Positions 5,045-53,009 of a stretch of 60,700 bases of DNA are shown piece by piece. Below the pieces are notes generated by a model, which was not told the DNA's origin, did not search any database, and saw only the letters and a program-made list of their open reading frames with translations. Positions within the stretch are counted from its first letter, which is position 1, and every line of letters starts with the position of its first letter. Both the position numbers and the translations under genes were made by a program. This stretch comes from an uncultured Flavobacteriales bacterium (GTDB taxonomy: Bacteria > Bacteroidota > Bacteroidia > CAIKAF01): positions 1 to 60,700 of the forward strand of contig CAILUT010000042.1 in the NCBI GenBank assembly GCA_903837495.1, given 5' to 3'.

Positions 5045-5120
5045 ATATTTCGGGGGGCGTTTGGAATGTACAGGTTGAAATTGCTTGGCTTGCTTTTCCA
5101 GGCAAAGGTGTTGGATTGGG

Positions 5121-5268
5121 GCGGCCGCCGGGCTTTCCGGGCTACTCCGCAGTCCAAAACGGGCCGGCCCAGGCCCGGCAGCAGCTCCCAAGGTCGCTCT
5201 GCCGGTCTAGGGCCGGCCTCCGTTTTGGCCTTTGCGGGGTAGCCTCGTCAATCCCTGCCGCAGGCCGC
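5121..5268 (+). repeat. Palindromic interspersed element, copy A
   Basis: One of seven related elements. Outer conserved segments are CGGGCTTTCC plus GCTACTCCGC on the left and TTTGCGGGGTAGCC plus TCAATCCCTGCCGC on the right. Between them a long stem pairs 5154-5170 (CCAAAACGGGCCGGCCC) with 5210-5228 (GGGCCGGCCTCCGTTTTGG), then CCGGCAG with CTGCCGG. The loop holds GCTCCCAAGGTCGC (5184-5197). It lies between the hisS promoter and the rhomboid stop codon (8 bp away). The open frames crossing it are by-products. Confidence 0.9.
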
Positions 5269-6684: not shown

Positions 6685-6789
6685 CTTCAAAGCCAACTCA
6701 AACCTAGGAGCTGCAGCGACTCAAAATTTTGCGCCGCTGCGTTAACGCCTCAACCCAATTTCAAATCCCACACGGCAAACGGCAACAAC

Positions 6790-6930
6790 GCGGCAGGGAT
6801 TGACGAGGCTACCCCGCAAGGCTGCCGAAGCCTGGCCCGCTAGGTGCGGAGGCGACGTTAGGAGCCCCCGCAAACCAGCTGGGCCAGCCTTTCGGCAACC
6901 GCGGAGTAGCCCGGAAAGCCCGGCTGCCGC
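6790..6930 (-). repeat. Palindromic interspersed element, copy B (reverse orientation)
   Basis: Same architecture as copy A, read on the minus strand: GCCGGGCTTTCCGGGCTACTCCGC at the start (left part shared with A) and CTTGCGGGGTAGCCTCGTC at the end. The stem pairs TGCCGAAAGGCTGGCCC with GGGCCAGGCTTCGGCAG, and TGCGG with CCGCA next to the loop. The loop (GCTCCTAACGTCGC, at 6852-6865) differs from the main form at two positions. Confidence 0.85.
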
Positions 6931-6961
6931 CCCCAATGCAGCCAAGCAAAAACCAGCTAAA

Positions 6962-11383: not shown

Positions 11384-11532
11384 GGGCGGCAAACGGGCTT
11401 TCAGCGCTAGTCCGCAGTCGGCAGGCTGGGCTGCAGCGGGCGGCAGGTAGCTCCCAAGGTCGCTCCTGCCGCCGCGCGCAGCCCGCCCGCCGCCTTTGCG
11501 TGCTAGCCGCTTCAATCCCTGCCGCGGGCCGC
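11384..11532 (+). repeat. Palindromic interspersed element, copy C
   Basis: Left flank GGGCGGC plus CGGGCTTTCAGCGCTAGTCCGC; right flank TTTGCGTGCTAGC plus TCAATCCCTGCCGC. Stem: GGGCTGC pairs with GCAGCCC and GGCGGCAG with CTGCCGCC. Loop GCTCCCAAGGTCGC at 11450-11463. The element begins directly at the T-run of the tRNA-Cys terminator. Confidence 0.9.
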
Positions 11533-13140: not shown

Positions 13141-13285
13141 CCGGCGCCCGGATGGAATAAGGTATCCGATGCCAGGCTTTGCCCATTGCCGAACGGGCGA
13201 GGAGGCGACCAGGGGGAGCCACCACAGCCCATTTCGGCAAAGGCAAAGCCGGCAGCGCTACCTATGACAGCCGGATAAGCGCCCC
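13141..13285 (-). repeat. Divergent palindromic element, copy D
   Basis: Read on the minus strand, the centre is GGTGGCTCCCCCTGGTCGCC, close to the main loop but one base longer and with a different middle (motif at 13205-13219). The stem pairs 13175-13198 (GGCTTTGCC..TTGCCGAA.GGGC) with 13227-13250, and an outer GGCGC/GCGCC closes it. The flanks differ from copies A-C, so it is an old copy or a separate subfamily. Confidence 0.6.
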
Positions 13286-35658: not shown

Positions 35659-35801
35659 GGGCGGGTTTCGGGCTTTCCGCGCTAGTCCGCAGGCATAAGG
35701 CTGTTGCCTGCGGGCCGGCAGTGGCTCCCAAGGTCGCCCTGCCAGCCACGCGCCAACATAGCCTTCTGCCTTTGCGGGCTAGCCGCGTCAATCCCGCCCG
35801 C
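35659..35801 (+). repeat. Palindromic interspersed element, copy E
   Basis: The cleanest copy. Left GCGGG plus CGGGCTTTCCGCGCTAGTCCGC, right TTTGCGGGCTAGCCGCGTCAATC plus CCCGC. Stem: AAGGCT/AGCCTT, GTTG/CAAC and GGCAG/CTGCC. Loop GGCTCCCAAGGTCGCC, core at 35724-35737. Located between the receiver gene and the 3' end of the minus-strand TonB receptor unit. Confidence 0.92.
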
Positions 35802-35839
35802 ATGCCAATGCCGAGTCGCCTTGTTCCAAAAATCCCAAA

Positions 35840-45191: not shown

Positions 45192-45295
45192 TCAAATTGC
45201 TTGCCGGCTCATTTGTTTGAAGCCTTCCGCTTGCAATCGCATACACTGAACATTGCCCCTTATTTGAGCAGCAGGTTCAAGGCAAAGAGCCGCCT

Positions 45296-45437
45296 GCGGG
45301 AGGGATTGAAGAAGCTAGCCCGAAACGGATGCAGGCCGGGTTGCGCGTGGAGAAGGGAGCGACCTTGGGAGCTACCCTGAACCCGCTGCAACCGGGACTG
45401 CAGACGGCGGACTAGCTCTGAAAGCCCGCACCCGCCC
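45296..45437 (-). repeat. Palindromic interspersed element, copy F (reverse orientation)
   Basis: On the minus strand: GGGCGGG, CGGGCTTTCAGAGCTAGTCCGC, stem TGCAGTCCCGGTTGC paired with GCAACCCGGCCTGCA, loop GCTCCCAAGGTCGC (45359-45372), then CGGGCTAGCTTCTTCAATCCC. Lies beside the tRNA-Asp terminator. Confidence 0.9.
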
Positions 45438-45442
45438 TAAAA

Positions 45443-48066: not shown

Positions 48067-48128
48067 GGCTTGCAAAAAGGGCATGGGAAAAGTCGATGGC
48101 AATTCAAAGCAGAACCTCATTTATTGGG

Positions 48129-48269
48129 GCGGGAAATCGGGCTTTCGCAGGTAGGCCGCGGTTGGCAGGGGCTGCCCCAGCGGGCTTGCGGTGGCTCCTA
48201 AAGTCGCCTCCGCGCCACGCGGGCCAGGCCCTGCCACCCTAGCGGGCTACCTAGCTCAATCCCGCCCGC
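48129..48269 (+). repeat. Palindromic interspersed element, copy G
   Basis: Closing pair GCGGG (48129-48133) and CCCGC. Left CGGGCTTTCGCAGGTAGGCCGC, right AGCGGGCTACCTAGCTCAATC. Stem TGGCAGGG pairs with CCCTGCCA, and GCGG with CCGC next to the loop. Loop variant GGCTCCTAAAGTCGCC (core 48194-48207), close to that of copy B. Confidence 0.88.
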
Positions 48270-48446
48270 AAAGCCCACTCCTGCAAATGCCCTGAGTTAT
48301 AAATAAAACGCGGCCGCCCTAAACATGCATTCAAATTCAATCTAGTTAATGCCGTTTAAATCTAGAATACAGGGATGTGAATGAGGGCTGTTTCCAAAGC
48401 GAATTCAGGGAAAATGTGTACTTTAGTCCCGAAAAATAGACGAACA

Positions 48447-51788: not shown

Positions 51789-53009
51789 ATGCCCAGAGTC
51801 CTACGCATCATCAATCGATTTAATTTAGGTGGCCCTACCTACAATGCGGCCTATTTAACAAAGCACTTGGGCGGGGATTATACTTCATTGTTGATAGGCG
51901 GTCAAAAAGAAGACAGCGAAGATTCGTCCGACTTCATCCTTCGGCATGTAGGAGTGCATCCCTTTTTGATTCCTGAAATGCAGCGGTCCTTGAATTACAA
52001 CAACGACATAAAGGCGTATTTCAAAATAAAATCCATTATCGAGCGTTTTAAGCCAGATATTGTTCATACCCATGCTTCGAAAGCTGGAGGCCTTGGCCGG
52101 ATGGCGGCTTTTTCATCGGGGGTACCTATTGTGGTGCACACTTTTCATGGCCATGTATTTCATTCGTACTTTAACAAGGCAAAGACGCATTTTTTCAAAT
52201 CGGTGGAACGGCGGCTGGCAAAAAAGACCGACCGCATTATTGCCCTTTCGGAATTGCAAAAACATGAATTGGTAGATGAGCATCGAATTTGCGGGAGCGA
52301 AAAGGTAACAATCATTCCTTTGGGCTTTGATTTGTTTCGGTTTCAAGAAAATCGATACGAAAAGCGGCTTGCCTTTCGCAGCTCATTTTTTTTGAAAGAG
52401 GACACCATCGCCATCGGAATTATTGGACGTTTGGTGCCCATTAAAAACCATGTTTTTTTTCTGCAGGCCATTGCGGCCTTAAAAAAGAAAACAAATTTGC
52501 CTGTTAAGGCCATAATAATAGGCGATGGAGAATTGCGAACGGAATTGGAAAAATGCTGCCAACAGCTAAATCTAAGCCATTCAGCCAGCCCAGAGTCATC
52601 GACCTTGGCAGATGTGGTGTTTGCGGGCTGGCAAAAAGACATTGATATGATTAATGCCGGACTCGATATCGTTGCTTTGACCTCCTTGAACGAAGGCACA
52701 CCTGTTAGTCTTATTGAAGCACAGGCTTCGAGCAAGCCTATTGTTTCAACCCGGGTTGGCGGAATCGAAAACGTGGTTTTGCCAGGGAAAACCGCCCTGC
52801 TCTCCGAACCCGGCGACCTAGAAGGGTTTGTGAACAATCTAAATGCCTTGGTTTCTGATTCCTACCTACGCCATCAAATGGGCGATTTAGGTTGGGATTG
52901 GGTTAGCAATCGTTTCCATTATTCCAGGTTGGTTTCGGACGTTAAAAATTTATATGAGGAATTGTTGGACCAGAAAGGCATACACCGCCCCATGCTTAAT
53001 GCCATTTAA
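51789..53009 (+). CDS. Glycosyltransferase family 4 protein
   Basis: 406 residues. GT-B fold: N-terminal VLRIINRFNLGGPTYNAAYL, DIVHTHASKAGGLGRMAAF, VVHTFHGHVFHSYF; C-terminal IGIIGRLVPIKNHVFFLQA, VVFAGWQKDIDMIN, and the donor motif LTSLNEGTPVSLIEAQASSKPIVSTRVGG written here as LNEGTPVSLIEAQAS for E-x7-E. It is of the type that builds lipid-linked repeat units for capsule or exopolysaccharide. Starts the cluster running to the WecA-like gene. Confidence 0.9.
   Translation: MPRVLRIINRFNLGGPTYNAAYLTKHLGGDYTSLLIGGQKEDSEDSSDFILRHVGVHPFLIPEMQRSLNYNNDIKAYFKIKSIIERFKPDIVHTHASKAGGLGRMAAFSSGVPIVVHTFHGHVFHSYFNKAKTHFFKSVERRLAKKTDRIIALSELQKHELVDEHRICGSEKVTIIPLGFDLFRFQENRYEKRLAFRSSFFLKEDTIAIGIIGRLVPIKNHVFFLQAIAALKKKTNLPVKAIIIGDGELRTELEKCCQQLNLSHSASPESSTLADVVFAGWQKDIDMINAGLDIVALTSLNEGTPVSLIEAQASSKPIVSTRVGGIENVVLPGKTALLSEPGDLEGFVNNLNALVSDSYLRHQMGDLGWDWVSNRFHYSRLVSDVKNLYEELLDQKGIHRPMLNAI

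Follow-up and report, generated by a model that had tools for sequence, protein, structure and literature searches.

Positions 35,659 to 35,801 of contig CAILUT010000042.1, from an uncultured Flavobacteriales bacterium, hold one of several related hairpins, and the question raised by this locus is what keeps such stems paired while their letters change and the loop at their end stays constant. An earlier note on this DNA had proposed selection for a folded hairpin with a recognised loop. We looked at the hairpin in the window (the whole 60,700-nucleotide stretch analysed, positions 1 to 60,700 of the contig), in the 2.51-Mb genome that contains it (G000) and in other Bacteroidota genomes.

Architecture and pairing of the hairpin

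Seven hairpin copies of about 145 nt each, all intergenic, were detected in the window with the covariance model R1. The copy at this locus, E (35659..35803, plus strand, ~145 nt, 126.4 bits), was divided into its parts on alignment A1. A 5' base stem with a variable bulge (GGGCGGG TTTC, 35659..35669) pairs with the 3' base stem GCCCGC (35796..35801). Next comes an outer internal loop, with a 5' side GGGCTTTC (35670..35677) whose columns are invariant or nearly so and a 3' side TCAATCCC (35788..35795) of invariant columns. The outer variable stem is formed by the arms CGCGCTAG (35678..35685), where most pairs of helix 1 carry double changes, and CTAGCCGCG (35779..35787), placed by the covariation test. 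It is joined to the inner stem through a semi-conserved TCCGC (35686..35690) on one side and the 3' junction TTTGCGGG (35771..35778) on the other. The inner stem (35691..35724 and 35738..35770) is the most variable module and apparently an exchanged one, as judged from module comparison, orthologues and covariation. It carries the conserved tip CTCCCAAGGTCGC (35725..35737), defined by the alignment and by tip counts in window and genome.

The other copies are A (5119..5263, plus, 120.7 bits), B (6788..6932, minus, 118.9 bits, subfamily S1), C (11384..11527, plus, 122.4 bits), F (45294..45438, minus, 123.5 bits), G (48128..48271, plus, 117.4 bits) and D (13141..13284, minus, 72.9 bits), which has the variant tip CTCCCCCTGGTCGC and was missing from the earlier list. 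Both C and F lie directly downstream of a tRNA gene and its terminator-like hairpin. The six stem pairs quoted earlier were all found, at 5154/5210 (A), 6881/6822 on the minus strand (B), 11428/11478 (C), 35697/35760 (E), 45388/45330 on the minus strand (F) and 48163/48229 (G). As described before, the tip is the same in A, C, E and F and differs by two bases in B (CTCCTAACGTCGC) and G (CTCCTAAAGTCGC).

Besides the tip, all copies have the outer motifs GGGCTTTC...TCAATCC in common. Over the 33 dissimilar copies of alignment A1 the arms are of near-constant length, and invariant columns occur in two places, the tip and the outer internal loop GGCTTTC/TCAATCC, the remainder being stem. The architecture is fixed, running from the base stem through the conserved outer internal loop and the outer and inner stems to the conserved tip; the mean minimum free energy is about -90 kcal/mol. 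A recognised tip is plausible, as had been proposed, but conservation is equally strong in the outer internal loop at the base. At L054 8607, a 100-nt element with its outer stem intact and its tip deleted is probably a decayed copy.

Pairing was then measured on the same 33 copies. RNAalifold gave 31 consensus pairs, and 25 of them had changed on both sides, above every shuffle and slide (500 shuffles, six slides). Among alignment cells, 88.3% were paired, compared with 67.4% after shuffling and at most 51% after sliding, and the covariation score was 0.518, with 0.163 for the shuffles and no more than 0.190 for the slides; the consensus structure came from the tested alignment itself, which gives it an advantage over the slides, and the margin is nevertheless large. 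The two arms of one element bind to each other at -46.6 kcal/mol, compared with -31.9 kcal/mol for arms taken from different copies. The claim that pairing is kept despite sequence change is borne out by this strong covariation; that the stems are unrelated to each other holds only in part, since they fall into subfamilies. Recent inverted duplication in each copy, which had been named as another origin of the pairing, is contradicted by the near-constant arm length, the shared internal-loop motifs and the orthology described below.

Copy number, spread and mobility

With up to two mismatches allowed, the tip occurs 7 times in the window against 1.2 expected (maximum 4 in 100 shuffles), one of the seven matches, at 52599, not being a hairpin copy. 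Genome-wide, the exact tip CTCCCAAGGTCGC was counted 93 times (control 0) and CTCCYAANGTCGC 200 times (108 forward and 92 reverse; control 1). About one tenth of the copies, D among them, have other central tip bases (CTCC[CT]nnnGTCGC). Copies are scattered singly over the genome and form no cassette-like arrays; 104-108 of them, in separate genome stretches, were studied closely. The ends of contigs C13, C16, C17, C19, C20, C22, C24, C25 and C52 of G000 fall within ~100 nt of an element tip, that is at least nine ends with about one expected. Short-read assembly seems to break at the hairpins, and copy numbers are therefore probably low estimates.

The CTCCYAANGTCGC tip is present in 155-200 copies in four congeners (200 in this genome, 155-192 in the three others), in 1-2 copies in two further congeners and in none of ten genomes of the family's other genera. 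This copy-number burst is clade-specific, which we count as support for a mobile element. The two low-copy congeners contain more than 100 hairpins of like outer architecture with other tips, such as GGCTTGCTGCGCTCCGCC and GGTCCCCCGAnnnnTCGGGGGCC. With model R1, 117 and 112 elements were found in these two genomes, and each of the four high-copy genomes gave at least 150. Three distant Bacteroidota genomes, which also have the CTCCYAANGTCGC tip on wholly different stems, gave 15-53. A longer tip pattern matched 3 of the 395 genomes of a phylum sample, a tally that seems to include this genome, and the outer motif GGNTTTYCGCTTCAATCYC, considered as a phylum-wide one, was present in 0 of 118 genomes and was rejected. 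G008, from another genus of the family, has short versions, one being approximately the outer scaffold alone and the other having a short plain inner stem.

Possible traces of movement were found at a few places. Presence and absence could be compared clearly at one orthologous site, without visible target duplication; in G002 an element stands right after the T-run of a terminator, and the same spacer in G000 and G005 holds the terminator alone. Insertion behind terminators was rejected as a general rule, with 4 of 108 copies in this position (control 1). The copies at W:6852, L029:7405 and a few other, unrelated loci have ~20 nt beyond the 3' end in common, which would fit the movement of a somewhat longer unit. 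Neither target duplication nor clean excision was observed. An apparent empty site at L101 turned out to be an occupied orthologue, automatic empty-site alignment being unreliable.

As for the enzyme, a family search detected no Y1 transposase (Y1_Tnp) in G000 or G005, and Y1/RAYT mobilisation within G000 was rejected on this result; a weak match that was followed up sits in RimP. Of the 12 Y1 genes in G001, G004 and G008, 7 have model hits nearby, on one side only. This represents about 5 independent cases for 0.5 to 1.3 expected by a rough density estimate. An autonomous gene bracketed by elements was also discarded, as the Y1 genes of G002 and G003 are not flanked on both sides. So was a phage origin: phage records gave no match, and 61 viral-contig matches lacked the outer motifs and fit chance. 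A Y1 (HUH) enzyme is the leading candidate mobiliser and no more than that. Clusters of another short palindrome, GCTCCGTAGGAGCG, adjoin Y1 transposase genes in G001 and G004 (L065 2430-2650 and L067 1290-1510). The start of an IS3-type orfA with an end sequence lies at L017 6180-6315 and recurs in G001, often at contig ends.

We consider it probable that the hairpin is a mobile DNA element of the REP/MITE-like kind, about 145 nt long and non-autonomous, acting as a folded hairpin in single-stranded DNA or as a cruciform. A candidate protein would read the base and the tip, and given such recognition the letters of the stems would be free so long as they pair. Inner hairpins would be copied from element to element with the outer stem left in place, and single mismatches would afterwards be compensated or corrected arm to arm. 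If the mobiliser is a Y1 (HUH) transposase, like those of REP/TIR systems, it would have been lost from G000. Against this explanation stand the negative Y1 search in G000 and G005, the lack of any visible target duplication or clean excision, the one-sided Y1 association with its ~5 independent cases, the apparent replacement of inner hairpins, which is read from diverged genomes, and the retention of copies at orthologous sites over large divergence, which could reflect a host function.

Inner and outer modules at orthologous loci

The inner and outer modules are decoupled. In G000, copy pairs with inner hairpins at least 90% identical have an outer variable stem likeness of 0.66, the same as for an inner identity of 0.6-0.8 and close to the 0.59 of dissimilar pairs. 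Subfamily S1 (GCCGAAAGGCTGGCCC...) occurs inside at least 7 different outer stems, each still paired. Many copies occupy the matching spacer in other species, and the outer stem is passed on with its locus. At L024/L119, G000 and its orthologue have the base and a rare outer stem (CAAATAG/CTATTTTG) in common; the inner hairpin is of subfamily S1 in G000 and an unrelated one in the orthologue. At the orthologous site L047:11811/L081:1146, the outer identity is 1.00 and the inner 0.54. Copy F keeps its base, outer stem and tip in four genomes; its middle stem in G000 and G005 is completely unlike that in G002 and G003 and is paired in both. The alignments suggest that at some orthologous sites the inner hairpin was replaced and the outer stem kept. 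At such genome divergence, copying between loci is not fully separable from repeated arm rewriting, and rapid stepwise compensation can explain part of the pattern; near-identical S1 modules are widespread, and copying between loci is therefore favoured.

Finer changes were seen at orthologous loci with recognisable inner stems. There, 34 double changes keep the pair and 6 break it, all 40 comparing with 3.5 expected under independence; each orthologue was folded in turn, so that an event enters the count about two times. Among close orthologues single mismatches are frequent, and double changes come block-wise. For copy E, a C-G to T-A double change separates G002 and G003, and at the G005 site the copy has decayed, its 3' arm being truncated and its tip mutated. 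At L280 1701 (G004) and L279 1501 (G001), downstream of the orthologue of gene L017:14012-15578, the spacer that carries a copy in G000 has a hairpin of the same orientation with a different tip (GAGCGTTTGCTGCGCGCCAC).

A bolder reading of this modularity is that an outer scaffold inherited at each locus takes up interchangeable inner cassettes that a dedicated structure-reading recombinase brings in from other loci, the tip being a clade-specific specificity tag. We regard it as a tentative and rather doubtful possibility.

RNA, DNA and known palindromic repeats

The copies could also be structured RNAs that lie mainly in 3' untranslated regions; an RNA-binding protein would then bind their fold and tip, or these would determine mRNA stability, and the stems would be under selection for RNA pairing. 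The strong covariation and the retention at orthologous sites agree with this, and so does the genomic setting. By simple ORF-based gene calls, most copies are intergenic; they occur on either strand, have a T-run immediately upstream and prefer gene 3' ends and convergent spacers. Of 101 copies, 64 have the upstream gene pointing towards them; divergent (promoter) spacers, with 13 copies, are avoided. However, 37 of the 101 copies face away from the upstream gene, and copies decay at orthologous sites. No Rfam family covers the element: searching the window returned two tRNAs only, with chance matches far below the gathering threshold at the element. Some elements form inverted, head-to-head pairs ~190-245 nt apart that are kept at orthologous sites (L004; L047 11811/12010; L032 701/945; L075; L076), reminiscent of REP dimers.

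The type of non-canonical pair bears on the same point. In non-redundant inner stems, 28 isolated G.U pairs were counted against 26 A.C mismatches, G.U making up ~3% of pairs; the redundant set gave 81 against 44, and the other strand, for non-redundant stems, 32 to 16. Selection on RNA should favour G.U, and since G.U does not exceed A.C in the non-redundant set, pairing at the DNA level is favoured. The test leans to DNA and does not settle the question; it speaks against selection on an RNA fold specifically. Altogether, we hold the RNA explanation to be unlikely.

The symmetry of G.U and A.C counts also fits neutral palindromes, read by no protein, whose arms stay paired through quasipalindrome correction (template switching) and whose tips are alike by common descent. 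Block-wise double changes and frequent single mismatches among close orthologues point the same way. Selection is not the only possible source of the paired change, to which inner-hairpin copying between loci, block replacement or arm-to-arm correction may also contribute. Neutrality does not account well for a tip and outer internal loop that are invariant over many dissimilar copies and recur in distant Bacteroidota on wholly different stems, nor for the constant arm lengths, and we find it about as improbable as the RNA explanation. Integron attC sites, recognised as a folded strand with a largely free stem sequence, likewise combine a variable stem with unpaired features that are conserved, but a site of this kind read by a tyrosine recombinase is very improbable here, as the invariant columns contain no R''/R' box pair or other attC boxes, the copies are single and scattered and not in cassette arrays, and the tip is conserved where that of attC sites is variable.

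For the favoured mobile DNA element, the closest systems are REP elements and REPINs with RAYT (TnpA-REP) and TIR elements with TIRYT transposases (PMC3733652, PMC6006769, PMC3116915). In the Bacteroidota, Y1 subclass 2.6 is reported to have atypical secondary structures on its flanks, and these recur elsewhere in the genome (PMC6006769). Like REP and TIR sequences, which are high-copy intergenic palindromes with variable paired stems, often in inverted pairs and in some families without a transposase, the element is a high-copy intergenic palindrome on both strands. It differs from REP in being ~145 nt long instead of 20-40 nt, in having no unpaired terminal GTAG or CGTC tag among its invariant columns, and in its conserved tip and outer internal loop with independent inner and outer modules. 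GTAG-tagged REP also needs a repeat-flanked RAYT/Y1 gene, with none in G000 or G005 and flanking on one side only in relatives. By length, tag and missing Y1 gene, the element falls outside the definition of REP. It resembles MITEs such as ERIC, RUP and NEMIS (listed in PMC3733652) in that its length falls within their 70-300 bp and that it is non-coding, intergenic, strongly foldable and of high copy number. MITE copies, however, share most of their sequence and the 15-30 bp terminal inverted repeats of an IS, whereas most of the stem differs between copies here, and there is no known parent IS, the parent search having covered the Y1 family.

In the open-access literature, nothing closer to the tip and related descriptions than REP/RAYT and TIR/TIRYT was found. 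Elements of these kinds are already known, and the new part would be the exchange of inner modules: copying of inner hairpins between loci, if true, is a modular exchange of which we found no description for bacterial palindromic repeats in that literature. The family is present in several Bacteroidota lineages and also appears to break genome assemblies. As a natural set with hundreds of hairpins in a genome, conserved in pairing but not in sequence, it separates what a hairpin-reading protein would see, the base and the tip, from what it would ignore.
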